Assembly: GCA_963969365.1 (NCBI GenBank)
Contig: OZ017748.1
Coordinates: 1,054,001 to 1,118,000 of the forward strand
Direction: 5' to 3'
DNA: 64,000 bases
Origin: Asterochloris sp. CNOR1
Taxonomy: Eukaryota > Chlorophyta > Trebouxiophyceae > Trebouxiales > Trebouxiaceae
Each line of letters begins with the position of its first letter. The first letter of the stretch is position 1. The translations under genes were made by a program, and so were the position numbers. Positions 1,923 through 63,640 of the stretch are shown here, in pieces. The notes beneath the pieces are model-generated. The model did not search any database. It was given only the letters and a program-made list of their open reading frames with translations, and was not told the DNA's origin.

Positions 1923-4900
1923 TCAACAGAGGTAAGCAGCCAGGTCAGACAGGCTGATGATACCCTCAACATGTCGCGTCTTGGGCTCCACCACATACAG
2001 ACGCCGTACTGAAGAGCTACAGAGGCGCTCCAAGACAGCCCTGCAGGACCATGGCAGCACGGCTTGACATTGGGGTCCGTCAAATGAACGGACTGAGCGC
2101 TGGCAGGTGCAGCAAATCAAGACATGTACACACCGGAGACTGTCCCGCGCTGTGCACCAGTGAAGGCGTGGAGGTCCTGACTGGTGGTCAGAAGGGCTGC
2201 CCTGTAACAGTGGCAGTAACACTGCTCAGCAGCTGCACACCATCACATCTGGGCTGCATGCATCCTTCTTGCAGGCTTGTCCCAGGAAATGCAGCAGTCA
2301 ACAGACAGCCTGAGGGACTCTCAGGGCAATGTGAGGAAAAAATATGATGTCAGCGCCGACTCTGGGCCTCACCTGGCCCGGCTGCAAGTGGGTGGCCTCT
2401 ATCAGCTGGAGCGCCTGACCCACCACAACATCCTCATATTGCAGCCTACAGCAGAGAGCAGCCTGATTAACACAGGCACGTCGAGTGTTGATTACTAGAG
2501 GCCTTCGAGTAGGTCTGGGTGCCACTGTCAGCCACTTGCAGGGAGTTCAATGCCCTTGCGGCATCTGGGCATGCAAGCCTGCGGCTGATGAGACAAGGCG
2601 TGATTGAGGGAGCATTATGCAGCCCATGGAAATGTGTTGTCTGCAAGCTCACCTGTTGTAGCTGTTGCCCTTGCAGAGCGTGGTGATGTCTGAGCGGGCA
2701 TATACATTGACTAGAGCCCCAGTCTGCATAACACACATGCCGCTCAAACTCTGTAACAGTGTGACAGGAATTGAGGACAGCTGACTGTGGGCTGCACGTC
2801 ACTCAAGCAGGCTAAGGAGTGTTTAGCAGACAGTGCTGGCCTTCAAATTGCTGCAAGCAGCATGCTAGCCGCACATGGCCACAGCAAGACCCTTGAAGTT
2901 GACAACCACTGGGGCTTGCTGCCGAAGAACTACAAGTCATCGTAAAGTGATGACCGTTGCACAAGCACCGCATAATAGGGCAAACACCTGCACCGTGCAC
3001 CCAACAGCTGGAGCAAGCCTCCCCGCCACTGAGCTGAAGACGACAACCCTTGTCGACCCTTGATCAGGTGCCTAAAGTAGGAGCCTCACCTCATCCAACA
3101 CTGGCAAGGAGCTGCACCCTGACTCCAGCAGGAGGCGCAGGGCAGTTGTCAGCGGGGTGCGCAGGGTGACGGTGTGAAGGCGGCGCACACGCCGCCTGTC
3201 CCTCCGCTCCTCCCCCTGCACCACAAAGGATGAATGTAGTTGACACCCCCGGCACGCCAGGAACATGCAGTTGGTATGCTCTGCATAAAAGGAACATGTT
3301 TGCAGTTGAGATCCCCTGCAGAAGCAGACATTGGCTATACGACATGGCGCCTGTCCCTCATTGTGATGCAGTTGAGCACAATGTGTAGACTGCAGGGTCT
3401 ACCTTGGCTTGCCACAAAGGGAACGGTCAAGCAGCAGCAGCCTCAGGCAGCAGCCAAAGAGGACCACGGCACCATCAGCTGCTGGCAGAGTCCTACATGC
3501 AGGCAGAACACAGCCAGCAGGCCAGATCACCCTTCGTCAAAAGCTGCCCTGTTTGGGCAGCCAGCAGCCACCTATGGCTGGAGCTGCTGGTGGGCATGGT
3601 GGGGCACCTTCAGCATAGGCTCACACTACTAGCCACACCCACACACAGTGCAAGCAGGGAGCTAGCCCTGGCAAGCAGCATACCCTGCTCAGCCTGCAGG
3701 CGCACACCGCACACCTCACCTCAGGCTGGTGCCCTGGCTGCACCTGCTCGTGGGCATAGCGGGAGTCCTCAGCCCAGGTGCCCACTGGCAGGGATCCCAC
3801 AGCCACGCTGAGTAGTGGCAGAGAGGACAGGCTGGCCCGGAAGTGGCGCATCAGACAGCCTAAGACACCGCTGACAGTGGCAATGTGCAGCATGGTGCAG
3901 ACCTCGCCCTGACCTACAGAGACACAGCAGCAAGGTACATGGAGAGCTGGAGGCCTGACTGAGGCATGCAACATGCTGCAGCTGAGAAATGCACGGTTCA
4001 TTGTCTCAGCGTTGAGCGTGTCATACAGGCAGCCCACGAGCAAGCTCGACCTCGCGCTGCAAAGTGCTTGCTGCAGCACATGTTTGCACTGCATGCATTC
4101 TTGTGGAAGCAATACAGCGCGTGCGCAGGCCGCCACGTGGAGCTCTGTGATGAATCAAAACAGCAAGGAGATGCCTTCATTTGCTGTGCAATGCATGAAA
4201 GCTGACAGGGCAGGGCACCTGTGTTCTCTGTGGTCAGCACGGGCGCCATGGAGACCTCTGAAACGCACAGGCGCTCCACAAAGGCATGAAGGTCCTCTTG
4301 CGGCTGCACAGCGACCAGCTGCTTGAAGGGGCGCCCGTCAGCCTCAGCGACCTGGCGCAACCCTGCAGGCAGCACCAGCAGAGTTGATATTGCAGGGATG
4401 AGTCCGGTGGCACAACAAGCTTGAGCGAGGGGCCGACAGCCTCAGCCAGCCCGCAGGCCCCGCACACTAAAGGCACCTGTGATCACAGTCAAGGGCACGT
4501 GTCTGAATCAATCAGCCTCAGCCACCTGGTGCAGCCCTGCAGGCTGCACAGCAGGTTGTATGGACATCAATCTCCAAAAGTGACAGTGGTTGTAGAGCAG
4601 TGCAGATCGGGCACCCTCAGCCACCTGTTGTGCGGCAGCACAGAGGGGCTTCCCATGACTGTGACGGCCAATCAAACACGTTCTTCCCATTCTTGAGCCT
4701 GGCTAGATCACAATCTGCAGCCTGCTGGTCCCTGTCAGCATCAGACTCCCAACACTCAGCTGACCACTAGCCCCTGGCCAAAGTGGTCATCTGACATGGC
4801 AGGTGGCCGGAGTGCGGCTTCACACCGCTTCATTCATGCCCCACCTCGAAGGGTGTGCTGGTCCATCTCCGCCTCCGACATCGCACTGGCTCCCGAGCTG

Positions 4901-7785
4901 ACGCTATTGCGTAGTTGCACCAGGATGTGGATGAAGTCGCTTGCGCTGATCATGCCCGCCACGGTCGCTGAGGCTGCGTCCCACAGCGGGGCTGAGGGCA
5001 CATTCTGCAGGGCAGCAGGGACTGACGTCAGCCCAAGCACAAACAAGCACTGATGGCCCCCCACAGCAGCCAAGGCTGGGTCCCACAGCGGGGCTGAGGG
5101 CACGCTCTGTAGTTCGCAGCAGCCGCCACTGGCCCAGACACTCGCCAAGGCAGATAGCCGCGGCCAGCAGCGTGACAGGCGGCACATTGTACAGTGCTGC
5201 ACATATGCAGATCAGCCCCACCAGCAGAGCTAGTTGCTGATCTTCCCCACAATAGCCACGGCTGCATCTCCCAAAGGGTAAGGGCACAATCTACAGTGCA
5301 GCAGACTCAATGCCTCACGAGCATCGCTGCCCAAGGGCTTTCAGCAATTCTGGTTCAAAGCTGCGGTCTCCAGCTCGAGAGTTGCAACCGAGTGATGCAT
5401 GCGTCATGTACATGCTGGCTCGGGGCAAGGCAGGACTCAGCCAAAAGCTTTGAAGAGCATCCAGCACAAGCTGCAGTGCAGGGGACCACTTGCTGCTGGC
5501 TGTGTGCATGCTACCTTGCACACCAGAGCAGGGACCTTGCCGCATGGTATTTGTGCGCTGCTGTGCTGCATGCCAGTCCGCACAGCTGCGGGCCAAGAAC
5601 TGAAAAGCCCACCTGCTCATGTAGTGCATGGAAGGCCTGGCGGACAGGCAACTCCAGATCTAACAGCACCACCTTGCCACTCTCTGGTATAAGCTCATAC
5701 GCGGTGTGGGTCAGCAGAAATTCCTTTATTTTGCTGCAGAGCACATGCAGCAGCTGTCAGATGGGCATGCTCATTAAGCTTATGAGGTAAAAGCCGGCTG
5801 CCGGCAGCTGACACTTGGCATCGAAATGCTGCAGGACATGCCCTCCTGCCCAGATGTGGACTGCTGGCCTGCACGCAAGCTGCCTTTGTAGCCCCGAAGC
5901 AGAGTACAAGGTGCTGGGGTCACAGCGGGAGATCAAGGTGCTTAGCTGTGCCTGCTAGGCTGCACAAGCGCTGCCATACGAGGCTAGCCGTACCTGCGCG
6001 TGAACTGTGGCTCGTCTGGGTGCATGCCAGATGGCAAAGACGAGGGCGCACTCATGCTGTCATCTGACATGGCGCTGACCTCCACTCCTTGCATGTCTAC
6101 GTCACTGTGAGACGGGCTAGGCTGCAGCACAGGAAGGCACCAGGTCAATGGTAGGCTCAATGGTCGGTGTGGAGCCCAGCGGCTCTGCTGCTTAGACTCG
6201 GCGCACAGGGTCAGTGCTTGGCTCATCAGGCACACAGCCCAAAGATCTGAAGCCTAGCGCCTGCGCCTGCACAGGACAGCATGAACAATTCTAGGGCGGA
6301 GGTGCAGCTGCTGCTGTAATACTCTTTGCTGCAGCATCTACAAGCACCAAAACAAGAGACCGCTCAGTGATTCTAGGCTCTTCCCTGCTTGCGTTGCTGC
6401 TTGGCTGGCCCTGCTGGTTGCCCTCCGAGCAGCGACTGCCATGATGCTGATGCTGCCTGTAGACCAGTCAGTCCCTGTCCCTTGACCTGCCAGCAGGGTT
6501 GCACTGCAAGCCAGCTTCGTGGCTCCGCTGAGGCTCAGGCACCCCCAACAGAGTGCCCTTTCTTCGTGGGGGACATCAACTGATCCAGATACATGTAGCA
6601 TGCTGTCATGGCATGCTCAGAAATCTGGCCACCAAAGAGAGCCACTTCACCTGGGAAAGTGACTGCTCAAGGGAGCCGCGATGCTGCTGCTGCTGCTGCC
6701 CCTGCGCAACGCCACCATGCTGTGCTGAGGAGGACTGCCGCTGCAGCTGGGAGGGAGGAGGGGGGAGCGGCCTCTGGGCCTGGCCCAGCGCCTGTTGTGG
6801 GGGCTGCCCTCTGGCAGGCAGGGTGGGCGGCGGTGGCCCCTGTGGCCCTTGCGAGGGGTGGGCCAGGCCTGCACGTGTCTGGGGATGGGCCTGCTGCTGG
6901 GAGTGCTGAGGCAGCACCTGGCTGCGGGACTGCTGCTGGGCCTGCTGCGGCAGCTGCCCGCCGCTGATGACAGACACCCTGCAGGCAGAGTCAAGGAGGC
7001 TTGACAAGTAGGCATTAGAGTGTGGGATGCGGTGGAGTACCTTTGCCTGGACTGCTGCAGCTGTGGGGGCCATGCCTGCTGTGTACATTGCATTGTGCAC
7101 CGGCCACTGGACGTGTGGTGTTGAGCTGTTTTGCAGGCAGGATCGGCATGTGGCCCACCCGGGGTTCTGCGGCTGCGCCTCTGGTCGCCGCACAAACAGC
7201 CAGTTGTTGACATTGCCCAATGGGTCGGGCATGAAGGGCTGCGTCTCATCGTGGCGCCACTCCCCATCGACAATGAACTTATACTGGTGGTACCTGCACC
7301 CGGCAGGATGCTGCAGAGTCACACCAGGCAGGGAGGAGCTAAGTGCAGTGCACAAAGACTATCGCAGGCCTTGCAAGTATGTGCAGAGCAGCATGGCTTG
7401 GGTTGCCGGCACAGTGCAGGTAGCATTGCGACAATGGGCGCTGCTTGGGGGAGGCAAGCTCACCCTGGCGGGAGGTGCACAACAACTTGGAACACTGTAG
7501 GTCTGCTGTCCACAGGAGTCATCGGCACTGTCTCCACCCATCTGGTGAAAGAGCCGCAGAGATGGACCTGCAGCAGGTGAGGGGCCATCACATGATGATC
7601 TAAAAGCTATGGCCCCCATGCAAGCCCACATGTTGCAGCACTGCCTGTACTCCTTTCACGTGTCTCAAGCAGATGCACTGCAGTCCTGGGTGCAACAAGT
7701 GACACAGGTCATGCAGTCTGCCTGAGCTCACCACTTGGCCCCCAAATTGCCAGGTGAATCTAGTGGGCACAAAGAAAGAAGCCAT
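1923..7785 (-). CDS. SNF4: SNF4 / KIN-beta-gamma subunit of SnRK1 (CBM48 + four CBS)
   Basis: Regulatory subunit of the SnRK1/AMPK energy-sensing kinase; the beta-gamma fusion is plant and green-algal (family knowledge). Start at 7785, [18 protein letters not shown]. The CBM48 glycogen-binding module continues in exon ~7580-7476 ([16 protein letters not shown]) and exon ~7290 down ([20 protein letters not shown]). A Q/P-rich linker (~7000-6660) and an acidic Ser-rich exon (~6130-6000) follow. CBS1 starts at ~5745 ([17 protein letters not shown]); an exon at ~5005-4850 carries [10 protein letters not shown] and [11 protein letters not shown]. Then come [16 protein letters not shown] (~4350), [18 protein letters not shown]-like text (~3890), [20 protein letters not shown] (~3150), [18 protein letters not shown] (~2700), [19 protein letters not shown] (~2440) and the last exon [20 protein letters not shown], stop at 1923. 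Order and content match plant SNF4 throughout. Introns before the CBS exons carry decayed exon copies. Confidence 0.93.
4498..4650 (-). repeat. Two exon echoes upstream of a CBS exon of SNF4
   Basis: The real exon starts after tgctgcctgcag near 4368 and reads [13 protein letters not shown]. At 4498-4567 the intron holds a diverged copy with its own acceptor (gtgcagcctgcag) reading GLHQVAEAD before losing similarity. A shorter third copy at ~4604-4645 keeps only the VAE core and its upstream context (VAEGARS). Order of conservation: real exon, near copy, far copy. Confidence 0.75.
5050..5305 (-). repeat. Two exon echoes upstream of the SNF4 PSAPLWD exon
   Basis: The real exon (start ~5008) reads [20 protein letters not shown]. 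Copy one (~5112-5050) reads [17 protein letters not shown] after an acceptor-like ctacag. Copy two (~5303-5240) aligns at base level (attgtgcccttaccc, then gggaagatcagcaa) but its reading frame is lost. All three keep acceptor-like AG dinucleotides at the same relative place. Confidence 0.8.
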
Positions 7786-9056: not shown

Positions 9057-12000
9057 ATGCTTGGCCAGCAAGCTCGCAGGCTTGCCAAGCGCAAGGCTAT
9101 CCAGGATGCAGCTGAGGCCTGGATGGAGCGTCTGGTGTCAGGAAGCAGGACCAGTGTGTCAGGAAGCTCAGGTATGTTGGTACAGCTTGTGCTGTCTGCT
9201 GCATGCTGCCAGCTGGAGTGCTGCCGCAGGCACAAAAGTGCCACAGCATGAGTACTGACCCACACATGCACTTGCAGCTGAAGTCAGCAGCGACTTGGCT
9301 GCGAGGCTCCTTGCCAGGCAGTATCATGCTGCAGTGCGAGCTGGCAGACAGCAGGGCCAGGCAGTGGCTAGGAACACTGGCAAGGATGTAGAGGGCTCTG
9401 CCCTAGTAAATTCAGTGCGGCGAAGGTTCTGCAGCGAGCCTCCACGGAAAGGTGAGCTGATGGTGCTTGTGTGTTCATGTTGTGGTTGCCTGCATTGAGG
9501 TCTGCAAACCTGCTGACGGCTGCCTGCCCCTGACGTGTAGGCTTTGAGCGTTTTTACCCGAAGAGCAAGCAGCGCCGTGCTGAGGGTGGCAGCAAGGCTA
9601 ATGGCAACAAAGGTAGGCCGACATCAAAGCAGGAGCCTGAATCTGCGTTATGTGGTACAGTCACGCTGTGGCATGCTTTCCACCCAGGCAGCATTTGTTG
9701 GAGTGCTGGCCCTCCACCAGGGCCAGGCATCATCTTGCATGTCCTGCAGCAGGGCTTGCTGTGGCCTGCTGAGGGTTTTGCATGACAGTGAGTGGCAGCC
9801 GACCCTGGAGAGGTCCACACAGAGCCTGCATGCCCGTCTTGAACAGAGAAAGATGGCCACAAAGCTCACCTTGCAAGGCCTGCTACACAGGACAGCTTTG
9901 GCGCAGGACGCCTTATTCTGCATGCTCCGCCTGCAGAGATGGCAAAAGACAGGCTCATCAGCAGCACAGCCTGTTGCAGGAACCTCATACAGCATGACCC
10001 ACTTGCAGGGAGCCCAGGCTGACCCTGTACACCCTGCGGCGGATCCATACAGACACTGGCCATTAGAGATGTGCTGTCTACCCTACAACAGGACCTGGGC
10101 CATGCAGTACTGAAATGTGCCTTGAGGCAGCAGCTGCTACTGCCCTCCCACCCAGCATTCAGGGTGCGTTGATGGACACCTCAGAGGAGTGAGGCAACTG
10201 GCCTGGCAGTCAGTCTGGCTCAGGGCTGATCCTTGCGTGCCCTGCCTGCAGAGACCGGCAAGCAGGGTGTGCTCAAGAACATTCAGGACAGCTTGAAGAC
10301 CCCTTGCAGTCCTGGCTGGCAGTCACTGTTCCGCTGGCTCATTGCGAACCCTGCATACCCTGCCTGCAGAGACCGGCAAGGCGGGGGAGCCCAAGAACAT
10401 CCAGGATACCCTGAAAACTTCCAAGGAATCTGTGCGCCAGGCAGTCCTGCTGGCAGTCACTGTTGCGCTGGCCTATGCCATGAGCAACATCAGCCGCCCT
10501 GACGCCCAGGAGATCAGCTTTCAGCACTTCAAGACGCAGTTGCTGTCCAAGGATGTTGTGGACAAGATCGAGATTGCCAATAAGCACACTGCCAAGGTGA
10601 GGGCTGGGTCTAAGGCCTGTGCCGGCAGACTCATACAGGTTGAGTGAGCACACTGCCAAAGGTCAGGGTTGACATCCAGGCCTCGCACTTGTCAAGCTGA
10701 ATTCGGACAGAGGCAGGACGAAGGGGGAAGGAGTTGTGTGCCTGTGCACAGCCATCAGCAGCTGCATTGGGGCAGCTGATGAGAGTGTCTGCTCAGGTGT
10801 TGTCATGGCTTGTCTCACCTGTGCAGGTTTATGTGCGCATGGGAGGCCCTGCAGGGCACAGTGCTGGCAGCAGCCGAGCAGCGAGCTCTGACTCAGGCGA
10901 GTTGGGCGGGCTACCTACACCTGCCAGGTGATCGCCTGCTGCCACTGCTCATTGCTGTGCTAGCTGGCTGCCACTTGCCCTTATGCAGTGCAGTGCTAAG
11001 ATGCAGCCCCTGCCATGGCAGCAATGGGTTGCACATCAGAGACGCTTTGCCCTGCTGCGTGAGTGCCAAGCATATGTCTGGTCTCCTGCCAGCAATCCTG
11101 GTCTGCATCTCCTCATACATGGCGCTGTGTGTCGCTCCCTCCCGCTGACTGCAGTGTGGACCCTGCGGATGCCAATTGCCTTGCACCACACACTCAGCGC
11201 CTTCAACCTGACCATCCGCCCCTGCTGCGCTGCAGTCTGTCTGCCACTGGTGCTTTAGGCCCCAGGCAGTACATCACCTCCTGATTCGAGAAATGGCTTG
11301 CTATTGACACATCTGAGGGTGACAAACAATGCTGTTCATCCCCAATTCTGCAGCGCTGCTCTTGCCAGCCACTCTGTGTTAACCTTGACGCGGCGCCTGA
11401 AAGTCTTGAGTCTGCACTGCAGGCAGCATCAATGTCCCACCCAGCGACACTCACCTGCCTCACAAGCTGTGGCCCACCATTTGCCCTGCTGTGCTGTGGC
11501 CCCATGCAGCACCATCCCTTGCCCTGTTGCCTAAATGTCACCCTTGACCCTGCTGCCGTGCAGCGCCGGCTTTGCTGGCGCCGATGACCATGCCCCATAC
11601 TATTGGACTGGTCCAGTCACCTCAGTCTGACCATCTGCCCCGCGTGCCCACCACCGCAGGCCTCATTACTGCTTGCGGCCCCAGGCAGCGCATCCCCTGC
11701 CTCAGCTGTATGGTATCAGATCCCTTGGCATCACTATACAGCTTTGTGCTGCAGATCGGGCTCCGCAAGTGCTGGTGGCCCCAGCCAGTACAAATACTAC
11801 TTCAACATCGGCAGCGTGGACAGCTTTGAACGCCAGCTAGAGGAGGCGCAGGAAACCCTGGGGTGGAACCCTGACGAGTTCATCCCCATCACCTACACCA
11901 GCCAAGTCAGCTGGTCCTCAGAGCTGCTGAGGCTGGCGCCTACCATCCTCCTGATTGCGGGCTACGTATGGTTCACCCGACGCAGCATGGGAGGAGGCAT

Positions 12001-15000
12001 GGGGGGCATGGGAGGGGGCAGTCGCAGCCTGTTCAATGTGGGCAAGGCCCACATTGCAGTCATCGACAAAAATGCCAAGAACAAAACCATGTTCAAGGTG
12101 GGCAGAGGAGGCTCGTCATTGAGACCATGGGTCTGCCTTAAATTGAGTGCAGGGAAGGCGCAGTAGAGCTTGGCCTGCTAAGCATGCAAGGTCCTGCTCT
12201 CGCTTGCCTGCATCCGCTTGAGGCAGCGCCGTCTGTATATCGCTTGTAATGTTGCACCCTGACTGCTGACAACAGGACTGTGCCAGTCTGCAGCACTAAG
12301 GGTAGCCTGCTCCTGTGCCAATGCAGCCCTTTGCACCCTGCAAGCTGCGCCTGTTTTAGTTGCAGCAGCCAAGGCACCGTGCTGCTATGCTACCACAGCC
12401 CTGTTTGTGCATCCAACATTCTGCACTGTGCTGCTCTGCAGGATGTGGCGGGCTGTGATGAGGCCAAGACAGAGGTCATGGAGTTTGTCAACTTCCTGAA
12501 GGTTAGCTCGACTGGATGAGTCAAGGTGGTTGAATATGGAATTCCAGAGATGATGCCTGTGCAGAGGATTTAGTGCCTTTGGCAGGCAGGGTGAGGCTGG
12601 GCAGAACACCAATGCTGCTGATCACTTCTGCTCAAGACACCTGCAGGGAACACGCACAGCAGCAGTGATGCGAGTCAAAGCCATTTTCAGCACCGTTCGT
12701 GCCTGACGATACCAGACAGCCACTAGCAGTGCCTATCAGCTTCTCATTCTCATCAGCGCAAGCAGCCTATAACAGCAGGGAGCCAATGCATGCTTTTGCC
12801 CTGCAGGTCCCTGGCAAGTACAAGGAGCTGGGTGCCAAGATCCCCAAGGGCGCCCTTTTGGTGGGCCCTCCAGGCACGGGCAAGACGCTGCTGGCAAAAG
12901 CCACTGCTGGGGAGGCCAACGTCCCCTTCCTGAGCATCTCTGGCTCTGACTTCATGGAGATGTTTGTGGGGGTGGGGCCGGCACGGGTTCGCGATCTCTT
13001 CTCACAGGCTCGGGCTCAGAGTCCCTCCATCATCTTCATAGGTGGGCCTGGGCAGCGGCAGGGCTACATAAGGCTGGGGCTGGACCGTGGGCAACACTGA
13101 ATGTGGCGAACTGAAGATGCAACCAGCGCAGTCATGTAGTCAAGGACGCCATCACGCTGGCTTTGATATCTGGGACACTTGCAATGCAGCCCTGTTTGGT
13201 GGGTGCACTCAGCACCCAATGACAAGGACGCAGCTTTCCACAATATGATGTCAATGGCGTTGGCGGCGCAGCTTCGCCAGTAGCAAACCTCGCGGCTGGT
13301 GCTAACGTCACCCTTTCGCTTGTAGATGAGATTGATGCCATTGGCCGAGCACGTGGCAGAGGTGGCTTTGCCGGCGGCAATGATGAGCGTGAGAACACGC
13401 TCAACCAGCTGCTGGTGGAGATGGATGGCTTCCAGACAACTGCTGGCGTGGTGGTGTTGGCAGCCACCAATAGGCCAGACATTCTCGATAAGGCGCTGCT
13501 CAGGCCTGGCAGGTGGGGATGCAGCAGCTTGCTGTGTCTGATTCAGGCACTTTGGCCCAGTGCATAGGTATTGCTTGCTCGGCTGACCTGGCCTGACATC
13601 AGCTCTGCTCCCTGGCTGGACTTATGCTGAAGGTTGTGCTGGCAATCACCAACAAGCCAGACATCCTTGATAGGCACTCATTCAGCCTGAAAGGGGGTTT
13701 ACAGCAGCTTGCCGTTGCTGCCTATCTCAGCAAGATTAGCTTGTGCCGCTTGGTGTCCATGTCTGGCAGATGGGGCCTCAGCCTGCCGTGTCGGTCTTGC
13801 TATGCTGTGTTTTAGTTGGCCTGGCAGGCGGCTGTGTAGCATGCTGCACCTATTTTGGTTTGCTTTGCTACTTTTGGCTGGCTTTCTGTCACCATGCATA
13901 TGACAGCACAACAGCATGCTTGTAGTTGCTATCTGGCATTGTGTCTGCGCCGCTTGAATCTAGAGCACACTGATGAGCCTGTGATCTGGCCCCTGCAGAT
14001 TTGACAGGCAGATCAGCATCGACCGCCCCGACGTGACAGGGCGTGAACACATGTTCCGCATACACCTGGCCAAGCTGAAGCTGGATAAGCCGCTGGAGTA
14101 CTACTCAGAGAGGATGGCAGCCCTGACGCCTGGGTTTGCAGGTGATGAGAGTGGCACTGTCAGGTTCTCAGTCCAGTTTGTTGTATTGCCATAGCCACTG
14201 GACTCCCTCACTCATGGTCCCAGCGCATGCCTGGTGTTGCGCTTGGATGTGCAGGGGATGCCACCAGTCAGGCAGCTGCCCTTGTTGCTTGTGGCTGCTC
14301 TGAAGTGAGCTGCTTTCAGTGCCCTGAAACTGTGTTGACTGCAAGAAGCACAGCCAAAGTCAACAAATCTCATGGACTCTGCCTTGTGCAGGTGCTGATG
14401 TTGCCAATGTGGCCAATGAGGCTGCCCTCATAGCAGCCCGGCGAGGCGCTGACGCAGTCTCCATGGTGGACTTTGATGCGGCCTCAGATCGCGTTATTGG
14501 TGGGCTGGAGAAGAAGAACAAGGTGCAGTTAGCTACCCGTCAGCTATTGTGGCTCTCAAATGTGTCAAACAGTCTGCAGCTTGCCTGCCCAGCTGAGTTC
14601 GACTGTGGCAAAGGCCAGCTTTGGTGATGTTGGCTGCAAATGCTGTCTGCATGAAAGGTGCTCAGCAAGGATCGAGCGTGACATCACAGCCTGCCGTCGT
14701 TGCCAAGCCTTGCATGCTCTGCAGATTGCAGCTTGCCCTGTGCTCCACAGGTCAACAGCTGAGCAAGGTCTTTGTTGTAAAACAGTTTCCCCTGCTGACC
14801 TCATGGCAGGGCTGCACTCTCAGCTCTAACTTGTGCTTTTTAGGTGATTAGCGGGACCTTGTCCAGGGAGGGGTGGACTGCAATTGCCCTCAGGCCTCGG
14901 CTGCAGCATCAATGTATACCTCCGTGCCCTGCAGGTCAGCAACGAAGTGGAGCGCAGAACAGTGATTCACCTTGGGGTCCTTCCTTCTGTGTGCTACAGG

Positions 15001-23310: not shown

Positions 23311-24730
23311 TCAAACAATGGAGTTGGCTGCTGAGGCGATGCGAGGCCACAGGTCCGCGCACTCCTTGGCCACAGGTCCAGTGATGGCAGAGCCTGCAGG
23401 GGCAGCACGGGTGACCCTCAGCTCAGCCCTCCAGAAACTGTATATGCATGCCTGTGATGTGCGCATCAGGGCACTTCACAGAAAAATGCAACCACGGAGT
23501 CCTTGCCGCAGACCAGCCCCTTGCTGTGCGCTTGACCCCGTACAACGCTGATCAACTCCTGGTGCTTCTGCAGTGCTGCCTGTTCACCCCTCAGCTCCAC
23601 TTTAGGGTCCACCGTTCACATAGCTAGAGACGCAGTGCTCCGCTAACGAGCTGCCCATGCCCTGCTGCCAGGCTGCCCGCTCACCCTTCATCTCTCCCTT
23701 GGGGTTCACAATGACGCCTGCGTTGTCCTCAAAGTAAATGAAGGTGCCGTCCTTTCTCCTCCAGGGCTTCCTCTGCCGGATGATCACTGCCTGCAGCACT
23801 GCAGGCAGCAAAGGCAAGGCTGGTCAGCATGATGTCCTGGCAGCCTGAACAGGCTGCCCGGCATGGGAGGGTGCTGCACACACCACAGCATAGGCTGCCA
23901 GTGTCCTGCACATACCACAGGCGGATGCAAGAGCAGCTTGTGAGGAAGCTGCCTGTGGCAGCGGTGAGTTGACAGGGCTGGTGGCACCCAGAGGCCTGTC
24001 CGTCACCAGTGTATGACCACACAGTATGGCCTGCCTGCGTGCAATCCCAGCCTTCTTTCCTGTTTATATTCAGACCAGACCATCTCCTTAGTCTGCCCAA
24101 AGAAGCTCACCCTTCTTCCTCAGGTCAGGCTTTCCCTTCTTGACGGTGGCCATGACCATGTCCCCGGGGGCACCAGCTGGCAGCCTGTTGAGGCGAGCCC
24201 CAAAGCCGACCACTGAGATGATGTACAGGTTTTTGGCACCTGCAGGCAGTTTTAGGAAGGAGGAGCTTGAGATGCCCAGCCTGTGAGCAGCATGTGATGC
24301 TGAGGTAAGAAAAAGGGTTACAGGCAAGTGGGCAAACTGCTGCTGCAGGCAGTTGCCCCTCGGCTGTGCAGCAGACAGCACGGGTGATAGGCAACACGGT
24401 GCCATAAGGCTGGGCAGGGGAAGAGCCAGCCTTATGAAGGGTGTAAGGTGCAGGTTGAAGGTGAGATAGCACTAGGGCTGCAGCTGGGTGCATGCTGCTG
24501 TGGTGGCTGCCTGTTGCAGCTAGGCGGGCAGATGAGCAAGCTTGCTGCTGACAGAGCAAGCTTGCTGCTGACATGGCTAGCGCCAGTCCTCCCCTCGCTG
24601 CCAGTACAGGTGTGCTGATGGGCTGCGCACCTGAGTTGTCTGCACAATTCATCACTGCAGCCACTGGCAGACCCAGGGACATCCTGAACTTGTTGCCACT
24701 GGCACCACCACGTCCACGCTTGGACGCCAT
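23311..24730 (-). CDS. RPL23: 60S ribosomal protein L23 (uL14)
   Basis: Component of the large cytosolic ribosomal subunit at the subunit interface (family knowledge). Four coding exons: 24730-~24623 [15 protein letters not shown]...NCADNSGAQ; ~24240-24116 [35 protein letters not shown]; ~23795-23685 [36 protein letters not shown]; ~23395-23311 [20 protein letters not shown], ending NSIV and stop. Together these give about 140 residues, the normal length. An acceptor-like cttgcag sits 7 bases before the ATG, so an intron in the 5'UTR is likely. Start-to-start it faces OXA1 across 300 bp. In a typical uL14 the second exon reads ISVKGIKGRLNRL; here [13 protein letters not shown] is a mild divergence. 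No defect is seen. Confidence 0.95.
24533..24574 (-). repeat. 21-bp tandem duplication in RPL23 intron 1
   Basis: gagcaagcttgctgctgaca occurs twice in a row inside the first coding intron, each copy carrying a HindIII-type palindrome (aagctt). No exon similarity. Confidence 0.85.
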
Positions 24731-35956: not shown

Positions 35957-41084
<5,128 letters not shown>

Positions 41085-48900: not shown

Positions 48901-51900
48901 CCACGCAGGAGCTGTACACTTGGCTCATGCTCCAGCGGCTGGCAGCTCATTGTTGCCTCTGCAGACAGGTAGTGCCAGGTGCAGCTGCACCGCTCACTAA
49001 ATTGCAGGCAAGCGATGCTTAGCAGAACAAAGATCACCACCAGCCTTCAGCGACTGTCCATGTTTGTCTGTGCAGGCAGGCGATGCATGGAAGGAGCTAC
49101 AGGAGGCTCAGAGAGCCTTTGCCCGGCAGCAGGGGGAGGCCCATGCCAAGCTGGAGGCTCAGGCTGTGGAGCTGCGCACCGCGCTGGAGGCAGCCAGGGC
49201 AGCGGCCCAGGGCAGCAGCCAGCAGCAGGCCTGGGAGGAGCTGCGCGAGCAGACCGAGCAGGAGGGGCGCCAACTGCAGGAGCAGCTGCAGGACCTGGAG
49301 GCCCAGGTCGGTCAGGCCACACTGCCTGCTGACCCAGTGTGCAGTGTTCCTTCGGTGCGAAGCTGCGTGGCAGCGCAAGCAGCTGCAGAAAATGAAAGCA
49401 TAGGGCAGTGAGCTCCAGGTGCTTGCTGAGTCCGTGTGCAATAAGTGGCAGCGCTGGACTGTGCTGGGCCAAGCCGCAATTGCAGCACCTGCAGGACACA
49501 ATGCCCAGGGCCTGTGTGCAGGGACACTAGTGCACTTTGGGGCGAGGGGGGCACTTAGCCACCTGTGTGCGCTTGTGAAGCTCAACTTGGGTTATTGCGC
49601 AGTTCCAGTGTCAGGTTGTGATGCAGCTGTGATCAACTCTGCAGTGGCAGCGACCTGCAGAGCGCATGGAGCTGCACTGGCAACTGCAGGACCTTGGAAC
49701 CCTCAGGTCTGCCAGCCACAATCACCAGTGGGGATGTGTGCAGCAGCTTCCACAGTCTACTGGAGTCATTAGGCCAGCTGCAGGAGCAGCTCCAGGACCG
49801 TGCCTGACAGCCAGACAGTGCTCAGACGGATTGAATCAACTTTTGATGCAGATTGGTGACTTGGAGAGCAGCAATGCTGAGCTGGAGGACAGCAACACCC
49901 GCCTGGAGGGGACTGCTGCTGCAGCACAGCAGAGGATTCAGGAGCTGGAGCAGCAGCTGCAGGAGGCCCGTGCCAAGGTGGGACTGTGTGACCCGAGTGA
50001 AAGTGCAGCTTGAATTGGCAGCACAGGAAGTGGGCTACGGGCACCGCTTTCTGCAGTTCAGTGTGATGTCAGATGATGTGTGCAAACTCCCGCCTCCAGC
50101 TGGATCATTGTACCAAGCTCAAGGCAGAGGCAACACGCCAATTGAAAGTGTTGTTCCATCATCATGGTGCCAGGCGCGGCACGCTTTGCTGCACAGCGCA
50201 CACTGCATATGCATCAGGTTGCTACATGGCCAACACCAGACATTAATCGTTTGAGCTGTGGCTATGACCCTTCTTTTCCGCTTGTTGCCTGACACCACAC
50301 GCATTGTGAGCTTTGGTTGTTGAGCTGGGATCCATTCCAGCATTGTGTGCCGCCCCCTGTATATGTCCCTGGTCCCATGCTGTTTGAGCACAAGGGCTTC
50401 AACCAGCTTGCGTGTGGCAAACTGAATGTGAGGCACACCCAGGCCCGGTGCATGAAACCTCCAGAAACTGTTTCATGCACACTCTCCTGGACATATGCAC
50501 TTCCTGCCCCAGCCTCTTTTAAGTGGGATCTCAGCGGCAGTGGTGCGCAGTGCTTGTAGCCACACTGCAGCGTTAAGAGGCTGCTGTGCCGTCTGCTGCC
50601 TTCATATGAGTTGTGCCCCCAAAAGGCAGTGCAGCCGCTGCCTGCGCAGCCAAGGTGCTGCTTCTTGCTGGTGTCTGCTTCTGTGTCCTCTCGCAGGCCA
50701 GCAACTCTGCAGCAGGCAGAAATGTACCTCGACACTGTTGATCAGGCTGTGTGCCTGGCCAGCTGGAGCGGCAGCAGTCTTGTTGACAAAACTGACTTGC
50801 TAGCCTGTTCGCGTCCAGGCTGCAGACTCAGAGTGTCTGCATGGCCTCGGAGGAAGCTGTCTGTCTGTGCAGGCCACTGATGCGGCTGCTGAGCAGCGCC
50901 TGCGGGACCAGGTGGAGCAGCTGCAGGAGCAGCTGGAGGCTCTGCAGACCCACATCGCTGAGCTGAAGCAGCAGCATGCAGAGCAGCTGGCGGCTGCACA
51001 CAGCCAGGTGGCTGATGGAGAGGCAGCCGCCAGAGCGCAGCAGCTGGAGGACAGGCTGCAGCAGGCTGAGGAGCAGGCCAAGAAAGATGCAGGGGCCAAG
51101 GACAGGCAGATCCAGCAGCTGCTGGAGGCTCAGCAGCGGATTCTGGAGGAACACGCAGAGCTGCAGCAGCTGAGGGATGAGGGCATGTCCAGGGTGCAGG
51201 CTTTGGAGGTGAGAGCACTGGAGAAAAGGGGGAGCACAGTCACCGATGAGCTGCTGTGGAGGTCAAGAGGTAGCTGCTTGAGCATGGCAGGCACTAGGCA
51301 GGGCGCGGTGTAGGGTTGCAGCATTTGCGGAACGATGGCCTGTTGTTGGTGTTGAAGCTGGATGCAAGCAAGCAGGGAATGCATGCTGCTGTAATGCTGG
51401 TGCTTTCAGAGAATGGACTGTTGGCACATGAAGATTGGCTGGCGTGAATCCTTGGCAGGCCTAGGGCTTAAGTGGAAGGCTCTCAGCCATGGGCTGCCAC
51501 GGCTGTGTGCCAATGCCTCAAAGCTCTGCAAGCGCCGCAAAGCGCACTTGCATGCTATTGACATCTAGCAAAACCCAGAGAACTTGCACATGAGGAGGGG
51601 GGGGTGGGGGGGGGGGGGGGGGGGGGGGGCACTGCTTTACGCGTCTGACCAATATTGAGTTCATGCACACCCACACTGGAACAGGCCCGGCAGGAGATTC
51701 GAGTTTGTGAAGCACTTCGTGTGCCATGCCTGCCTGGCTAGACTCTCTCCTTGACTGCCTTGTCACACAGGGCCAGCTAGTGGAGGCCCAGGAGCAGCTC
51801 CAGGGCCAACAGGCTGTCAGCCAAATGAAGCAGCAGTTGCAGGAGTACGAGCAGTGGTTTGCACACTATCAGGCAAGCGCTGAGTGACTTATGTGAATGC

Positions 51901-54900
51901 TCTGCTGCAGACTCTGTGTTCACAGCAAGTTTGGTCCTCAACCCTGAGGTAGCTTCAGGGCTTCCAGCTGTTCCACTGGCAGCTGAATACCTTGTCATGA
52001 AGCTGCTGAGATATGTGGGCTTTCCCTTTGTTGTAGCCAAGTTCGATGATGTACTGGATATCAGACTGCGAGTTGAGCCAGCAGCAGGCTGTGAGCCACA
52101 GAGTGCCGCTGCAGGAGACCACAGCAGCTGCTGAGGCAGAGCGGGATGATGCTCAGGCACAGCTGCAGAAGGCACAGAAGCAGATGCAGGAGCTTCATGG
52201 CAGGGCTGAGGGCGGCAGTGCTGCCCTGCAACAAGTGACACAGCTGCAGGAGCAGGTGGGAGGCCCCCTGCTGACTGCTCAGCTGGCTCTCTGGCTGCTG
52301 CAAACATTAGCTTGATCTGCCTGCTGCCTGCATCTGTGAGAGAGCAGGCGGCAGTGGCCGCCTGCATGATCTGCAGCAGAGAAGACCTCCAGTGCAGCAG
52401 ATACAACACGTGGGGCACTAAAGCGTCTGCGCTGCTTGAGTACACAAGAAAAGCTCCTTGGGAGCACAGTGGACTGCCTGTCTCATCCAGTGTAAGTAGG
52501 AAGGTGTCTATGCTGCCGGGGGCAGGTGGAGCACTGCAACATCACATCATGCAACGTCCCACACAGAGCAGCAATTAGTGCAAATGCCCTGCACAGACAG
52601 GTTCTGTGCTGCCCGGCACAGGTGAAGCATTATGAGAGCACAGTGGAGCGCCTCTCTGGAGAGCTGGGCGCCCGTGTAACAAAGCAGGAGCAGCTGCAGG
52701 GCGAGGCTAACGCGCTGCGCAGGCAGCTGGAGGAGGCTCAAAAGGAGCTGGCTGAGGCGGAGGAGAAGGTCTACAGCTCCATCGGAGACTACAAAGTGAG
52801 TGACAGCTGGCCAACACAGCAGGACGCTCTGCAGCGAGTACATCGTATGGCGGGAACTGGCCACGGCCAGGGTATACACTTCACAGCTGGATGGGTACCA
52901 CAAGGTAACCCAGTGCTGGATCTTGGAATAGCAAGGACCATCAGGCTGGGTGCTCTGCTGCCTCAGCGCTAGGCAAGCCGCTGCCAGCATGCATTGTGCT
53001 TTCATAGTAGTCCTGGGCTGCTGACTGCAACCCGCTGGCATCTGCCTGCAGTTTGCTCACACAACTCCTGCAGCAGCAGCTGCACCAGGCTTGGGAAGTC
53101 TCCTGCTCGGCACGCGTCATTGCCTGACTGGCCGTTGAGCAATCCACCACAGCCCTGTAGGTACAATTTGGAGGAGGTCATAGACAGCCTGCTGGTGCAG
53201 CTGCAGCCGGCCAGGGTGCCTTGTGCCTGCCATGGCCTGGAGTCGTCCAATTTGTTGGCGTGCCTGCAGGAGCACATAGACGCCTTGGAGGAGCAGCTTC
53301 AGCAGGCGCGAGATGACCTGGCTGCTGCTGCTGCGCAGCAGGCAGCGTCCCAACAGGAGCGGGATGCCCTCCAACAGGCCCTGGATGGCAGGGTCTCAGA
53401 GCACCAGCAGCAGGCTGATGAGCTCTCAAGCAGGGCCCAACATGCAGAGGAAGCACAGGCTGCGGCGGAATCCCGCATGAAGGTAAGGACCGCCATCAGC
53501 TGCTTCCGTGGCCTTTTGTGTGGTACAGTTTGCCATTAGATCGACAAATCTCTACCCTGCGTAGCCATCCTGCAGGGTCTGGCTCTGCAGCTGCTCTGCC
53601 GAAGCCCATGCCCCTGCCTCTGTGGACCTGCTGCTTTTGAGACTGTCTCCTAAAGATGAGGGCCTTTGGCACCCTTTGCACACCAGCCTCTCACATGCGC
53701 GCCTGGGGTCTGCAGGAGCAGGAGGCGATGGCTCTGCAGCTGCAAGGGCAGCTGCAAGAGGCCAGCGTGGCCAGTCAAGCGCTGCAGCGGCAGCTGGAAG
53801 AGGAGCAGGAGGGCAGGGCACGCCTGCTCGAGGAGACTGCATATGCACAGGAGTCTGCTGCCAGTGTGGAGGCCTCGTTGCGGGCAGAGCTGGAGGCTGC
53901 ACAGGCAAGGCAGATCAACCTGTTGCTGGATCACACCCCAGGGAGCGCTGGCTGCTGCCCATACTGCCTCTTTCTGTTGTCAAGTGGGGGTGGCGGCTGC
54001 ACGCCTCGCCTCTGCACAGGAGTCTGTGACCAGTGTGGAGACTCCCTGCGAGAAGGGATTGGACCCAGCGTAGGCAAGTAGGGGCCCTCAGCCCTGCTAG
54101 ATGCAGTAGTTAGTGGCAGCGCTGGGGTCACCATAGCCAGACCACTGGCTCAGCCAAGTGGTTGCACCACGCCATGATATGCATTGCAGGGGCTGCAAAG
54201 GGTGCCAGGGGCTTTACACTGCAAGCGCAATTGGGCCAGCACAGCCCTGTGCATGACACAGCCCTGCAGGCACAAAGCCTCTGGCGGCAGCAGCCCCTCG
54301 CCCGAGGCACAGCAGTACTGTGGGTGCAGTCCCCCCGCTGCCTGGCCTGCACCTGCCTCATGGATGTGGTGTGCACCGCACGTTTGGCACCTGCAGGCAG
54401 AGGTGGCGGCAGCATGCCCCTCACCAGGCGCCCCACAGGACTGCAGGCGCTGCTCCCCTGCTGACTTGTAAATGTCTGTATGGGGTGCCCATCTGCTGCG
54501 CGAGTGCCCATTTGATGGTGTCGCAGGCCCAGACAGCGGCAGCAGCCCCCTCGCCAGGAGCCGTGCAGGAAGCTGAATCCCTGCAGCAGCTGCTATCCGA
54601 TGTCCAGCAGCAGCTCCAGCAGGCACAGGTTGAGCGGGAGTCCTTGAGCGAAAGGGCCCAGGCGTCGGACATAGACAGGCGGCAGCTGCAGGCTGCACTG
54701 GACGACACCCGCGAGCAGGCCAGGAAGGATGTTGAGGAGCTCACACAGGTGTGTCAGGAGGGGCCTTGCCTGCTGCTGCATGTAGTCAGCGTTGCCTTGC
54801 ACCACTGCACAAAGCTGTGTGTGTGTGCCTCCAGGCCAGACGTGGCCAAAAAGCCACAACTTCAGGCACAGTGATGCGGCAGGCACAGCACCATTCCATG

Positions 54901-57501: not shown

Positions 57502-57851
57502 GCTGCCAACTTTGAAAGATACCCCTCTGGAACTGAGTGCTGAGTGAACAAATCAGGTGCATCTCTGTGGACCAAGCTGTTGCCATCAAATCAGTCATGA
57601 GTCATCATCCATGCTTGAACTCGAGCAAAACATCTAATGGCGCAGGGCATTTGTTGTCAGCTCAATGACTTGTGACATGTCAGCAGGATTCATGGCTATC
57701 AGGCCGATTCATTGTTTGTGAGGCTGCTGTCAAGTTTGCTGCTGTGCACCCAGATGATGCCTGCTCACAACTCATCATGCTGGCTGTGTTCATGCTGGTC
57801 AGTTTGGTTGAGTGTCTTGCCCTCCACTTCTGCAGCTGTGTAGGCTGCCTG
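57502..57851. other. Convergent 3' region of golgin and the Q-rich gene
   Basis: 350 bp between two stops that face each other. A/T-richer than flanking exons. No exon, RNA gene or clear TGTAA signal was seen. Confidence 0.5.
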
Positions 57852-61073: not shown

Positions 61074-63640
61074 CTACCTGGGAACAAAGTACAGGCTGCG
61101 CTTCTGCACCACATATGCAACCACCAGCATGAACACTGCAAGGCCGCCCCACAGGGTGAGGCGGTCCCAGTTGGCGTGGCGCTGCATTGTGGTGAGCAGG
61201 CGCTTGCCTGTGCCCAGGGTCCCCGCCTGGCCCCTGCAGTGGGGCAGGGCAGTGCTACTCGGGGCAGGCACCAAAGCAGTCATGTACTCCAGGCTTGGGC
61301 ACCACCCAGGTTGGCCCAGGGGTGCTTGCCTGACGCAACAAAAGCTGGCAGCAGAGTGCAACAGAGAGATGCCGAGATGTGCCACTTGGAGGGGCAGCAA
61401 GACGTGCTGATCTGGCTCAGGCTTATGCGTCGCAAACCCCATGAGAACTGGCCAAGCAGCCACAACCCACATGCAGCAGCAATAGCTTACAAGATGCACA
61501 ACAACGTCTTTCCAGCTGACTCGGGCTTTTGAGAAGGGTATAGCTGGTGGCAATTTGCTGCTGCCTTATTTGGCCCATTTGGAGGTTGCCAACAGAAGGT
61601 GCTGGCAGCATGCATGACCAGGTCGTTGCACACATCCAGGCTCATGTGATAATCAGTTATCACCAGGAATATGTAAAAAAAGTATCAGTTGCCACACCAT
61701 CCAATGATTATGGTATGACCTGTTCCCCACCTGTACTCATCCTTCATCTTGCCCAGCTGGGTGTGGGAGGCTTCCATCACCGCCAGGGCAGCACTGGTGT
61801 TCTGCACCTCCTGCAGTGGGCACCAAGCACTGCTTGGGCACTGGCCAAGCAAAAGGGTGTCGCAATGTGTGAGCTGAAGTGCAGAGCTATGCAATGCTGA
61901 GGAAAGTCTGCAGAGCAATGTCAAAACTTGCCTCGAGCTTGGCATGTCAACAAGCAGTAGACAACATCTTTATGCTGTTGAGATCTCCTGCTGGAGAGGA
62001 GCAGAGAAGCATAGAAGGGATATACTGAAGTATCTGTGGTGACTGTGGGTGGCAGCAAGCCAGCAACACATCCCTACCAGGGCCCGGTGCACTTGGCTGC
62101 CTGGCATCTCTACACCACAGCCGTGAGGTTGCAGATTGCTTCAGGCTGCCAGTGGGCTGTTTGGCCTTGTTCAAGACCATCAGGCTCAGCCTGCAGCTGG
62201 AGCTGGGCTCCCCTGCAACATCTGCCCAGCAGCAGTCAGCCCCAGGAGCACACCTGAGCCATGAGCATGCGAGTCCGCTTCAGGCTGTCAGTGGCCCCCT
62301 TGGCCTCGCCGACAATGTCTGCCTCAGTCTGCAGCTTGCGCTGGGCTGCACCGGCATCGGAGCCGCTCAGCAGCTCGCGTCGCTCATCGCGGTGGGCCTT
62401 CTCCTGCTTGCGCTGCAGCTGCAGCAGGGCCTGATCAAAGCCCTGGCGCAGAGTCTCATAATGGCGCTTGTGCGTGGCCAGCTTGCGTGCCAGGCGCTCG
62501 GTGTCCTCGTCCCTGCACGCCAGCAGCTCAGGTCAGACCAACCACTTCCCTGTGCACCTGGCAGGGGCCCTGCTGAGCTGAGGTGCGCCCTGACTCCCTG
62601 CCTGGAACGCCCTTGTCCCGTCTCTGTAGCCCATGTTGCAGGACCAGTGCATGTCATAACCCTGATGATGGTGCTTGAGCATGGCCAGCTTGTGCAGCTG
62701 GCACTCAGTGTAACTTCTGCCTGAACGCAAGACCGAAACTCAGCGGCTCAGGTTGGCTGAGTGCAAGAGGGGTGTGTGGCGGGTGCGCCATGTCCTCATC
62801 TCTGCAGCACATGGAAGTTTGCTGGCTGTGAGTGGCTCTGGTGCCAGCCGGGCATGTTCCCCCAACCCTGCACATGACTGCACATGTGAGTTGTCCAGCC
62901 GCAATTGGCTTTGATGCCAGCGACTGGCACGCTGTTGCCTCAGGCCTGCAGGCAGGTGTCTAACACATGAGATCCCTTCTCAATCCAGGACCAGTGCCGT
63001 TGACTTGTCATCAAGGGCCAGGCGCTCGGTGCTGACTTCCCTGTAGGCCAACAAAGCGTTTAGCCCAGAACATGGCGAGGCGTGGACCCCCTGCGGCGTA
63101 GCAGCTCTGGGTCCGCTTTGCAGCAGGCAAGTCAGGGGCTGAGCTGAGGAGCCATAGCTCTCCAGACAGGCATCCTGTGTCCCTGTCCTTCCAGGAGAGC
63201 AGCTGCAAGCTTGCCCTGGAAGCCTGCCTTGGCGCAGCTTGTGACAATGTGTGCCTTGCACAGGATGATGTGAGGCCCCACAGCACATGGAAGTGGCAGT
63301 CCTCAGGAGCAGCAAGGCATTGTGACTTTGGATCAATACATAGCGCATGATTGTGCAGCACAGAAGGGTGCCCCAGCACTCGTGAAGTAGCCTGGCAACA
63401 TCACCCCACTCACGTGTCCTGCTCATCTGCAAAACACTCCAGATCATACAGGGTTGCCCGCAGCCCTGCGCATGTCTCCCTGAAGGTGATGTCCAGCTCC
63501 CGCGCCTGTTCATGCTTAGCAGCAGGCAAGTTTGACAGCTTTCTGGTGATCCCTGCTGCCTGCTCCTGTTGCTGGGACAGGGTGGCATCCAGGTCCTGCT
63601 CCTCCTGGGCATTGCTGCTGGACAACTTGCCAAGCTGCAT
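61074..63640 (-). CDS. SEC20: SEC20-type SNARE (retrograde Golgi-ER traffic)
   Basis: Q-SNARE of the ER membrane that receives COPI vesicles (family knowledge). Exon 1 from the Met at 63640 reads MQLGKLSSSNAQEEQDLDAT, then LYDLECFADEQD. The exon ~62516-62259 reads EDTERLARKLATHKRHYETL, RQGFDQALLQLQRKQEKAH, RRELLSGSDAGAAQRKLQTE and GATDSLKRTRMLMAQ. The exon ~61820-61735 reads NTSAALAVMEASHTQLGKMK. The last exon (~61240 down) reads GKRLLTTMQRHANWDRLTLW and a membrane helix GGLAVFMLVVAYVVQ, KRSLYFVPR, stop 61074. This matches plant SEC20 in order. No HDEL-like retrieval signal follows. Splicing at a GTAGGG donor overlapping the stop could instead run on into downstream Q-rich exons. Confidence 0.82.
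63000..63058 (-). repeat. Exon echo (or alternative exon) in SEC20
   Basis: After ggcctacag the intron reads EVSTERLALDDKSTALV, a diverged copy of the next exon's start DEDTERLARKLATHK (~62516). Both keep caccgagcgcctgg just after the acceptor. The copy lacks a good GT donor at its end, so it is more likely an echo than an exon. Confidence 0.7.

Follow-up and report, generated by a model that had tools for sequence, protein, structure and literature searches.

A window of 64 kb (C3:1054001-1118000) of the lichen alga Asterochloris sp. CNOR1, taken from an assembly of 56.4 Mb in 21 contigs, encompasses a SNF4-like AMPK gene, an FtsH gene, a SufS-like gene, a ribosomal protein L14/L23 gene, an OXA1-like gene, a BUB1-like gene, a CDPK gene, a golgin-like gene, and SEC20. 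The introns of these genes contain diverged copies of the edge of an adjacent exon. A preliminary description of the window had reported such exon-edge copies in at least eight genes, and at least one cluster pairing an exon with an intron was found in each of the eight that it named (SNF4, FtsH, SufS-like, OXA1, BUB1, CDPK, golgin, and SEC20). The observation is thereby confirmed; in the stretches sampled the copies are systematic, specific for the adjacent intron, and graded in their divergence.

The sample comprised 344 kb, consisting of the window, 200 kb of contig C1 (C1:500001-700000), 40 kb of C5, and 40 kb of C9, the last of which served as held-out contig; C1, C5, and C9 are three other contigs of the same genome and together account for 280 kb. 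When exons were compared with their adjacent trimmed introns, a Smith-Waterman (SW) score of at least 18 was reached in 61 of 1016 comparisons. This score was never reached with length-matched introns taken from other genes (0 of 1016), and once with the adjacent intron in reverse complement (1 of 1016). Before C9 was added, the corresponding counts were 55 of 905 for adjacent introns versus 2 of 891 for non-adjacent introns of the same gene, 1 of 905 for introns of other genes, 1 of 905 for reverse-complemented introns, and 0 of 905 for shuffled sequence. In the sample, the similarity of exons to their neighboring introns is therefore higher than that to distant ones, contrary to the outcome that by the preliminary description's own account would have refuted it, and its portrayal of the pattern as systematic agrees with the presence of copies in 59 of the 553 introns, spread over 33 of the 64 genes. 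Copies were detected in 43 of the 221 trimmed introns of at least 300 bp and in 16 of the 332 shorter ones, longer introns also having more room. On basis of the 10,025 genes and 9 introns per gene given for A. glomerata in the accessible part of PMC6652019, it can be extrapolated that approximately 10% of some 90,000 introns in the whole genome would carry a copy. Among the literature matches listed for the wordings tried, there was no genome-wide account of exon-edge copies in introns, and Armaleo 2019 (PMC6652019) nowhere uses the word "tandem" (0 occurrences) in its main text, as far as that text was accessible.

Gene models were obtained ab initio with a purpose-written, self-trained hidden Markov gene finder, and are supported from outside it for two genes. 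For the window, C1, and C5, the gene finder predicted 56 genes with 571 exons and a median intron length of 254 bp, and the splice consensus was CTGCAG/G for the acceptor and CAG/GTGAG for the donor. In the introns of these stretches the acceptor consensus is unusually strict (T 91%, G 94%, and C 96% ahead of the AG), and approximately 9% of the predicted donors are non-GT, the model permitting GC. All eight window proteins submitted to Pfam matched the expected family (AMPK1_CBM/CBS, FtsH domains, aminotransferase V, ribosomal L14, 60KD_IMP, Mad3_BUB1_I, kinase/EF-hand, and Sec20), which backs the submitted part of seven of the eight genes named in the preliminary description, the golgin gene having been left out of the submission. 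The predicted CDPK, from which one residue encoded by a doubtful 3-nt exon had been taken out by hand, could be aligned with the JGI model Astpho2/2436 over 502 positions, 487 of which match, and the differences comprise one 14-residue gap and a flanking residue. For the SNF4-like gene, P0121 (607 amino acids, derived from a 2072-bp contig of source "lgn" that is presumably an assembled transcript) displayed 100% identity over 99% of the prediction and can be placed on every exon of the model apart from one of 6 nt and the 3' end, while P0122 is without some of the exons. In both genes checked, P0121 and the JGI proteins P0122 (SNF4-like) and P0001 (CDPK) are encoded by the source exons and lack the copies. 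Judging from these two gene products, the alga is probably Asterochloris glomerata or an extremely close strain, with which the 56 Mb and 9 introns per gene given for A. glomerata (PMC6652019) agree.

Exon-edge copies in the window

The copies are given below with the position and strand of the copy, its source, and the identity between the two.

3575..3627, minus strand: donor-side exon-edge copy in the SNF4-like AMPK gene (source 3735-3786, 74%; skipped by P0122)
4512..4554, minus strand: copy of acceptor and exon edge in the SNF4-like gene (source 4338-4381, 89%; skipped by P0121 and P0122)
5056..5304, minus strand: one to two copies of acceptor and exon edge in the SNF4-like gene (source 4954-5070/4973-5122, 66-68%; skipped by P0121 and P0122)
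10215..10300, plus strand: copy of acceptor and exon edge in the FtsH gene (source 10334-10418, 80%; a modelled 15-nt exon, 10252-10266, lies inside)
13632..13720, plus strand: donor-side exon-edge copy in the FtsH gene (source 13450-13540, 74%)
18307..18360, plus strand: copy of acceptor and exon edge in the SufS-like gene, head to tail (source 18351-18404, 93%)
19080..19135, plus strand: copy of acceptor and exon edge in the SufS-like gene (source 19174-19231, 79%)
21343..21380, plus strand: donor-side exon-edge copy in the SufS-like gene (source 21220-21257, 79%)
22022..22217, plus strand: serial copies 5' of exon 22251-22363 in the SufS-like gene (source 22233-22338, 66-73%)
23565..23612, minus strand: donor-side exon-edge copy in the ribosomal protein L14/L23 gene (source 23662-23709, 73%)
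26725..26786, plus strand: donor-side exon-edge copy in the OXA1-like gene (source 26505-26566, 76%)
29642..29763, minus strand: donor-side exon-edge copy in the BUB1-like gene (source 29802-29924, 68%)
31168..31239, minus strand: weak copy in a Q/E-rich region of the BUB1-like gene (source 31421-31488, 74%)
40207..40246, minus strand: copy of acceptor and exon edge in the CDPK gene, 420 bp off and not head to tail (source 39787-39826, 92%; skipped by P0001)
49378..49440, plus strand: donor-side exon-edge copy in the golgin-like gene (source 49281-49343, 68%)
54008..54078, plus strand: donor-side exon-edge copy in the golgin-like gene (source 53839-53909, 74%)
54282..54440, plus strand: copy of acceptor and exon edge in the golgin-like gene (source 54404-54570, 63%)
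62112..62233, minus strand: donor-side exon-edge copy in the SEC20 gene (source 62250-62374, 71%)
62662..62731, minus strand: copy of acceptor and exon edge in the SEC20 gene (source 62455-62523, 73%)

Four pairs that lie entirely within introns serve as comparison class.

18093..18201, plus strand: intron-only head-to-tail duplication (49-bp unit, 83%)
20539..20687, plus strand: intron-only head-to-tail duplication (73-bp unit, 92%)
28945..29216, minus strand: intron-only duplication (141-bp offset, 72%)
11203..11698, plus strand: intron-only weak pair (419-bp offset, 65%)

The extremes of divergence that had been singled out earlier were recovered, as the pair 18307/18351 is 93% identical and the pair 4973/5157, which extends to 5304 and spans position 5240, is 66% identical. 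The modelled FtsH exon 10252-10266 is probably a false call inside a decayed copy, and the same probably applies to the modelled exon 22096-22179 of the SufS-like gene, which places the serial copies at 22022..22217 in the class of clusters with both members exonic. Judging from these two likely cases, exon-edge copies can mislead ab initio gene finders into exon calls. In the SEC20 gene, positions 58519-58630 contain in-frame exon repeats at a 75-bp offset with CTGCAG in each, the first of which is the predicted acceptor.

Local direct duplications and their position relative to exons

Self-alignment of the window returned 23 off-diagonal matches, all 23 of which are direct; 20 of these are 44-420 bp apart, and the other three are located within the golgin gene, 0.96-6.3 kb apart. 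A looser self-alignment gave 30 matches, including one inverted (1-10 kb apart). In the window, C1, and C5 together, matches with a score of at least 22 numbered 111 direct versus 1 inverted at offsets below 250 bp and 13 direct versus 3 inverted at 250-500 bp, i.e., 124 versus 4 below 500 bp, establishing both direct orientation and local spacing; 14 direct matches were found at 0.5-3 kb, of which six at 1-2 kb. The held-out contig C9 contained 17 direct versus 1 inverted match at offsets below 500 bp. Among the self-matches of C1, 18 of 58 were other than local direct.

Clustering of the matches with offsets below 500 bp yielded 90 independent clusters in the window, C1, and C5, and 13 in C9, resulting in a total of 103. 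Median values over the 90 clusters were approximately 121 bp for the offset, 66 bp for the aligned length, and 78% for the identity. The window contributed 27 clusters, comprising 18 exon-intron, 4 intron-intron, and 5 with both members exonic. In the complete set, an exon or junction was paired with the adjacent intron in 57 clusters, and 21 were intron-only, 11 intergenic, and 14 exonic on both sides. When the annotation was rotated 2000 times, a procedure that retains local annotation structure but not base composition, the expected numbers were 32.6, 30.1, 23.0, and 17.3, respectively, and 57 exon-intron clusters were never reached. Moreover, the exon copy was positioned within 3 bp of a junction, on either side, in 50 of the 57 pairs versus 61% in the rotations, none of the 2000 being as high. 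Since an ab initio gene finder can take copies for exons, true exon-intron pairs may have been shifted to the class with both members exonic, part of which probably consists of misannotated copies.

The preliminary description had stated that most copies repeat the acceptor. This bias does not hold, since the copy represents the donor side in 33 cases and the acceptor side in 24, and in the window in 10 and 8 cases, respectively.

Duplications free of exon sequence also exist, as the 21 intron-only and 11 intergenic clusters illustrate, and include young and clean head-to-tail examples at 20539 in the window and at C1 178213 and C1 82355. Further repeats, with offsets of approximately 68-75 bp, are found in unannotated (intergenic) DNA at positions 68725-69186 of C1:500001-700000. 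At positions 170096-170283 of the same stretch, an exon end is duplicated and the acceptor in the model is the internal CTGCAG of the second copy; this is possibly an incipient intron, or else an exon called in error.

Decay of the copies and the sequence past the border

The intronic copies decay as non-coding DNA, in a near-neutral manner. In 51 exon-intron pairs the mismatch at codon positions 1, 2, and 3 was 0.219, 0.205, and 0.247, respectively, and 25 of the 26 indels in the exon-derived part shift the frame, on basis of which a coding role of the copies was rejected. The idea that the copies are alternative or mutually exclusive exons under selection may draw on some copies with an acceptor-like AG and high similarity (10215 and 40207), but these same near-even mismatches and frameshifting indels, as well as the skipping of copies by independent proteins in the two genes checked, make it very improbable. 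With the exon taken as ancestor, transitions amounted to 0.252 per CpG site versus 0.083 per other C/G site, and 14 deletions and 13 insertions were counted. CpG is also depleted in 304 kb of the sample, with observed/expected ratios of 0.47 in exons and 0.32 in introns; together with the approximately threefold CpG transitions in the intronic copies, this suggests cytosine methylation.

The earlier statement that copies often keep their splice dinucleotide was substantiated, and decoy splice sites thus exist. Leaving out ten pairs that could not be assessed, the acceptor AG was retained in 16 of 21 copies and the donor dinucleotide in 15 of 26, where 12.6 and 11.8, respectively, were expected from local identity. 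Selection for or against the decoys was considered and rejected, as retention follows local identity without clear departure and appears roughly neutral; no sign of selection on the decoys was seen in these copies.

Continuation of similarity was determined over 15 nt past the border in the copies that reach it, which were 18 on either side. On the acceptor side, the continuation fitted the unspliced intron best in 15 of 18 copies and the spliced neighbor in none, with 3 ties, and past the first 6 nt the identity to the intron was 0.481 versus 0.275 for random sequence. Acceptor-side copies thus run on into the intron, which indicates a DNA or unspliced template on that side. The donor side displayed no clear likeness to the next exon (0.272 versus 0.245 random), and the exact donor dinucleotide, counted by hand, was present in 9 of the 18 copies. 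For all 36 copies taken together, the sequence past the border was as unlike the spliced neighboring exon as random sequence (0.241 versus 0.252), and a spliced mRNA template was rejected for these copies. The acceptor side therefore behaves as expected from an unspliced template, and the ends on the donor side are sharper than expected. Donor-side examples in which similarity continues up to the exon end and breaks off no more than a few nt later, unlike on the acceptor side, are C1 105530, C1 136622, and window position 26769.

Around 579 spliced junctions, 7 matches extend at least 8 nt across the junction. The best of these, with a score of 30, and one of the pair scoring 25 fit the unspliced donor continuation, and the remaining ones are short, some of them fitting the spliced form at least equally well. 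RNA- or cDNA-templated repair that puts exon ends into introns would be in line with the latter matches, with the fact that most alignments of exon ends to introns terminate no more than a few bp from the border, and with donor-side copies that lack intron similarity past 6 nt. Nevertheless, we regard such repair as quite unlikely, because the 7 matches were selected by alignment to spliced sequence and the strongest, as well as one of the two at score 25, fit the unspliced form, the 36 copies not selected in this way do not continue into the spliced neighbor, acceptor-side copies run on into the intron, and half of the donor-side copies have a donor dinucleotide.

Origin of the copies and relation to known systems

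The best explanation, which we consider probable, is that the copies are ordinary small local direct duplications that were tolerated through splicing at the outer site and subsequently decayed. The genome has gathered many such duplications, of tens to a few hundred bp, which are present in exons, introns, and intergenic DNA alike and would stem from staggered breaks that were mended in an error-prone manner, or from slippage; CST/Pol alpha, NHEJ, and Pol theta repair are candidate routes. Small tandem duplications via error-prone break repair have reportedly been described by Vaughn and Bennetzen (2014), Schiml (2016), and Messer and Arndt (2007). Duplications within exons would mostly be purged by selection. 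If the duplicated unit straddles a border, the outer splice site may still be used, leaving the mRNA unchanged and a spare exon edge in the intron, which would then decay neutrally; most copies would by now be old. An exon-intron pair stays recognizable longer than an intron-only pair because its exon copy is conserved. In kind, the cause is probably nothing out of the ordinary, and it is its visibility that is unusual. Direct and local duplication, adjacency, non-coding decay, skipping of the copies in two genes, and the run-on of acceptor-side copies into the intron were observed and agree with this explanation. Head-to-tail arrangement is clean in several young pairs, and the members of the four single head-to-tail pairs that are at least 90% identical share 3-8 bp where they meet. 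Simulation with present introns reproduced the proportion of intergenic to intron-only clusters (0.46-0.63 versus 0.52-0.56 observed), simulations being exploratory throughout, with parameters chosen by hand.

A number of results weigh against the duplication explanation, and the donor side in particular poses a puzzle. The first group concerns spacing, as a gap of at least 15 bp separates the members in 42 of the 57 exon-intron pairs, and at identities of at least 85% six of eight pairs are spaced versus 29% predicted by a head-to-tail model; in spaced pairs, the unaligned part scored 9.07 with its predicted partner, versus 8.81 for an exon-side control and 7.63 after permutation. Class numbers are equally difficult to accommodate. 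The ratio of exon-intron to intron-only clusters is 57:21, or 2.7, and constant-rate simulations with present introns gave 0.62-0.99, implying a 2.7- to 4.4-fold excess of border pairs. Past-weighted ages raised the simulated ratio to 1.2-1.8, which is still below 2.7, and brought the simulated share of pairs with at least 90% identity closer to that observed; halved ancestral introns gave 2.1-4.2, but predicted a ratio of intergenic to intron-only clusters of 1.5-1.8 versus the observed 0.52. Clusters with both members exonic, 14 versus 17.3 expected, are not clearly depleted. The intron-derived parts are 1.19 times as diverged as the exon-derived parts of the same pair (22 pairs), where 1.36-1.42 was simulated, and the median identity of the 57 exon-intron pairs, 76.6%, lies below the simulated medians of 79-90%. 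Finally, donor-side identity to the intron past the first 6 nt was 0.253 versus 0.257 random in the 18 copies, whereas simulated border-crossing duplications retained 0.645 at constant rate, 0.488 when old, and 0.355 when very old with large indels. Among exon-edge copies with an SW score of at least 16, 18 of 38 on the donor side and 18 of 36 on the acceptor side came within 3 nt of the border, versus simulated shares of 76-77% (constant rate), 62-65% (old), and 41-45% (very old).

These ages also bear on the earlier claim that the process is continuing. Pairs of 90-97% identity do exist, which supports it, but within genes only 5 of 51 exon-intron pairs reach at least 90%, fewer than the 20-27% in constant-rate runs with time decay or the 23-51% in other constant-rate runs. 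The possibility that copies were born diverged through error-prone copying was simulated and not adopted, since it gave an exon-intron to intron-only ratio of 0.57 versus 2.7 observed, a ratio of mismatches at codon position 3 to positions 1 and 2 (p3/p12) of 1.00 versus 1.17 observed, and a divergence of intron relative to exon parts of 0.97 versus 1.19 observed.

Part of the process may be templated insertion, later rearrangement, or an event tied to the border. A border-linked process, such as R-loop breaks near splice sites or template switching at the border, would make exon-edge copies that are partly spaced from their source. It could explain the 57 exon-intron clusters versus 32.6 in the rotations and the ratio of 2.7 that constant-rate simulations do not attain, as well as the loss of donor-side similarity just past the exon end; such copies, which lie apart from their source and do not extend more than a few nt beyond the end of the exon, are unlike the head-to-tail prediction. 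Some young copies, at C5 32008 and window position 39787, moreover begin a few bp from the border and are spaced from their source. Against it, intron-only and intergenic duplications occur too, in proportions close to those that opportunity would give, and the excess is explained in part by differential decay and old ages. Moreover, some half of the exon-edge copies fall short of the border by more than 3 nt, and acceptor-side copies continue into the intron. That exon borders are favored by local copying, perhaps tied to transcription or splicing, which places exon-edge copies in introns, is a tentative proposal, and a border-linked origin appears rather unlikely, though it is the alternative to which we give most weight.

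Two other accounts find less room. Relics of intron birth via tandem duplication of an exonic AGGT segment, according to the Rogers model, would likewise leave exon-like sequence in introns, and small in-frame exon repeats are present, as in SEC20. However, the donor and acceptor flanks of the same intron had a mean anchored identity of 0.387 versus 0.384 when permuted (511 introns), none of the 511 introns reached 0.60 (0.1 expected), and most exon-intron pairs have a single junction in range. As permutation leaves the likeness of the flanks unchanged, the introns are not Rogers-type introns of recent birth, ancient ones being beyond detection, and this origin is highly unlikely. That the pattern is an artefact of assembly, or reflects chance similarity within low-complexity GC-rich sequence, could be suspected because the strict acceptor word CTGCAG/G recurs in exons and copies. 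Such an origin is scarcely credible, given that controls were near zero, misassembly would hardly produce graded divergence together with frameshifts and CpG decay, and the pattern was reproduced on the held-out contig.

If approximately one-tenth of the introns keep an exon-edge copy, the conserved exon represents a near-ancestor of neutral sequence, which would offer a direct mutation spectrum and a relative clock for a lichen alga, reveal one route of intron growth, and provide many natural experiments on the choice of the spliceosome between the old and the new copy of the same site. Border-favored copying, if true, would make introns longer and would create series of weak decoy splice sites genome-wide.

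Several known systems resemble the small local duplications favored here, as described in the accessible parts of the papers cited. Introners are dispersed families of repeat-derived introns (PMC9860276) and share with the present copies that intron sequence derives from repeats; as origin of the copies they were rejected for the sample, because exons match adjacent introns and reached an SW score of at least 18 in none of the 1016 comparisons with introns of other genes; the 18 C1 self-matches that are not local direct were left untraced in this, and no family search over the whole genome was made. In the Rogers/Hellsten model, duplication of exonic AGGT gives intron gain (PMC4974935), which is alike in combining tandem duplication and splicing with an unchanged protein; that model creates introns, whereas the anchored-flank test was negative here. 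Break repair makes small tandem duplications in other organisms (PMC8355091), and these are alike in being short, direct, local copies, but most pairs in the present set are probably old, many are spaced, and breakpoints are unreadable in decayed pairs. The [D] stwintrons of Lipomyces involve donor duplications of 4-7 nt that are credited to break repair and form nested introns (PMC7138796). They have a small duplication at an exon-intron border in common with the copies described here, which measure tens of bp and include exon sequence, nested splicing being a stwintron feature. In potato RdRp, a tandem duplication over an intron-exon boundary made a new intron and an inserted exon (PMC4974935). 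Its unit holds an intron end and the start of the next exon, as do the acceptor-side copies here (15 of 18); in contrast to potato, the two genes checked in Asterochloris (SNF4-like and CDPK) have no new intron or extra exon and retain the outer site, and where the potato case concerns one gene, copies are found here in 59 of 553 introns.

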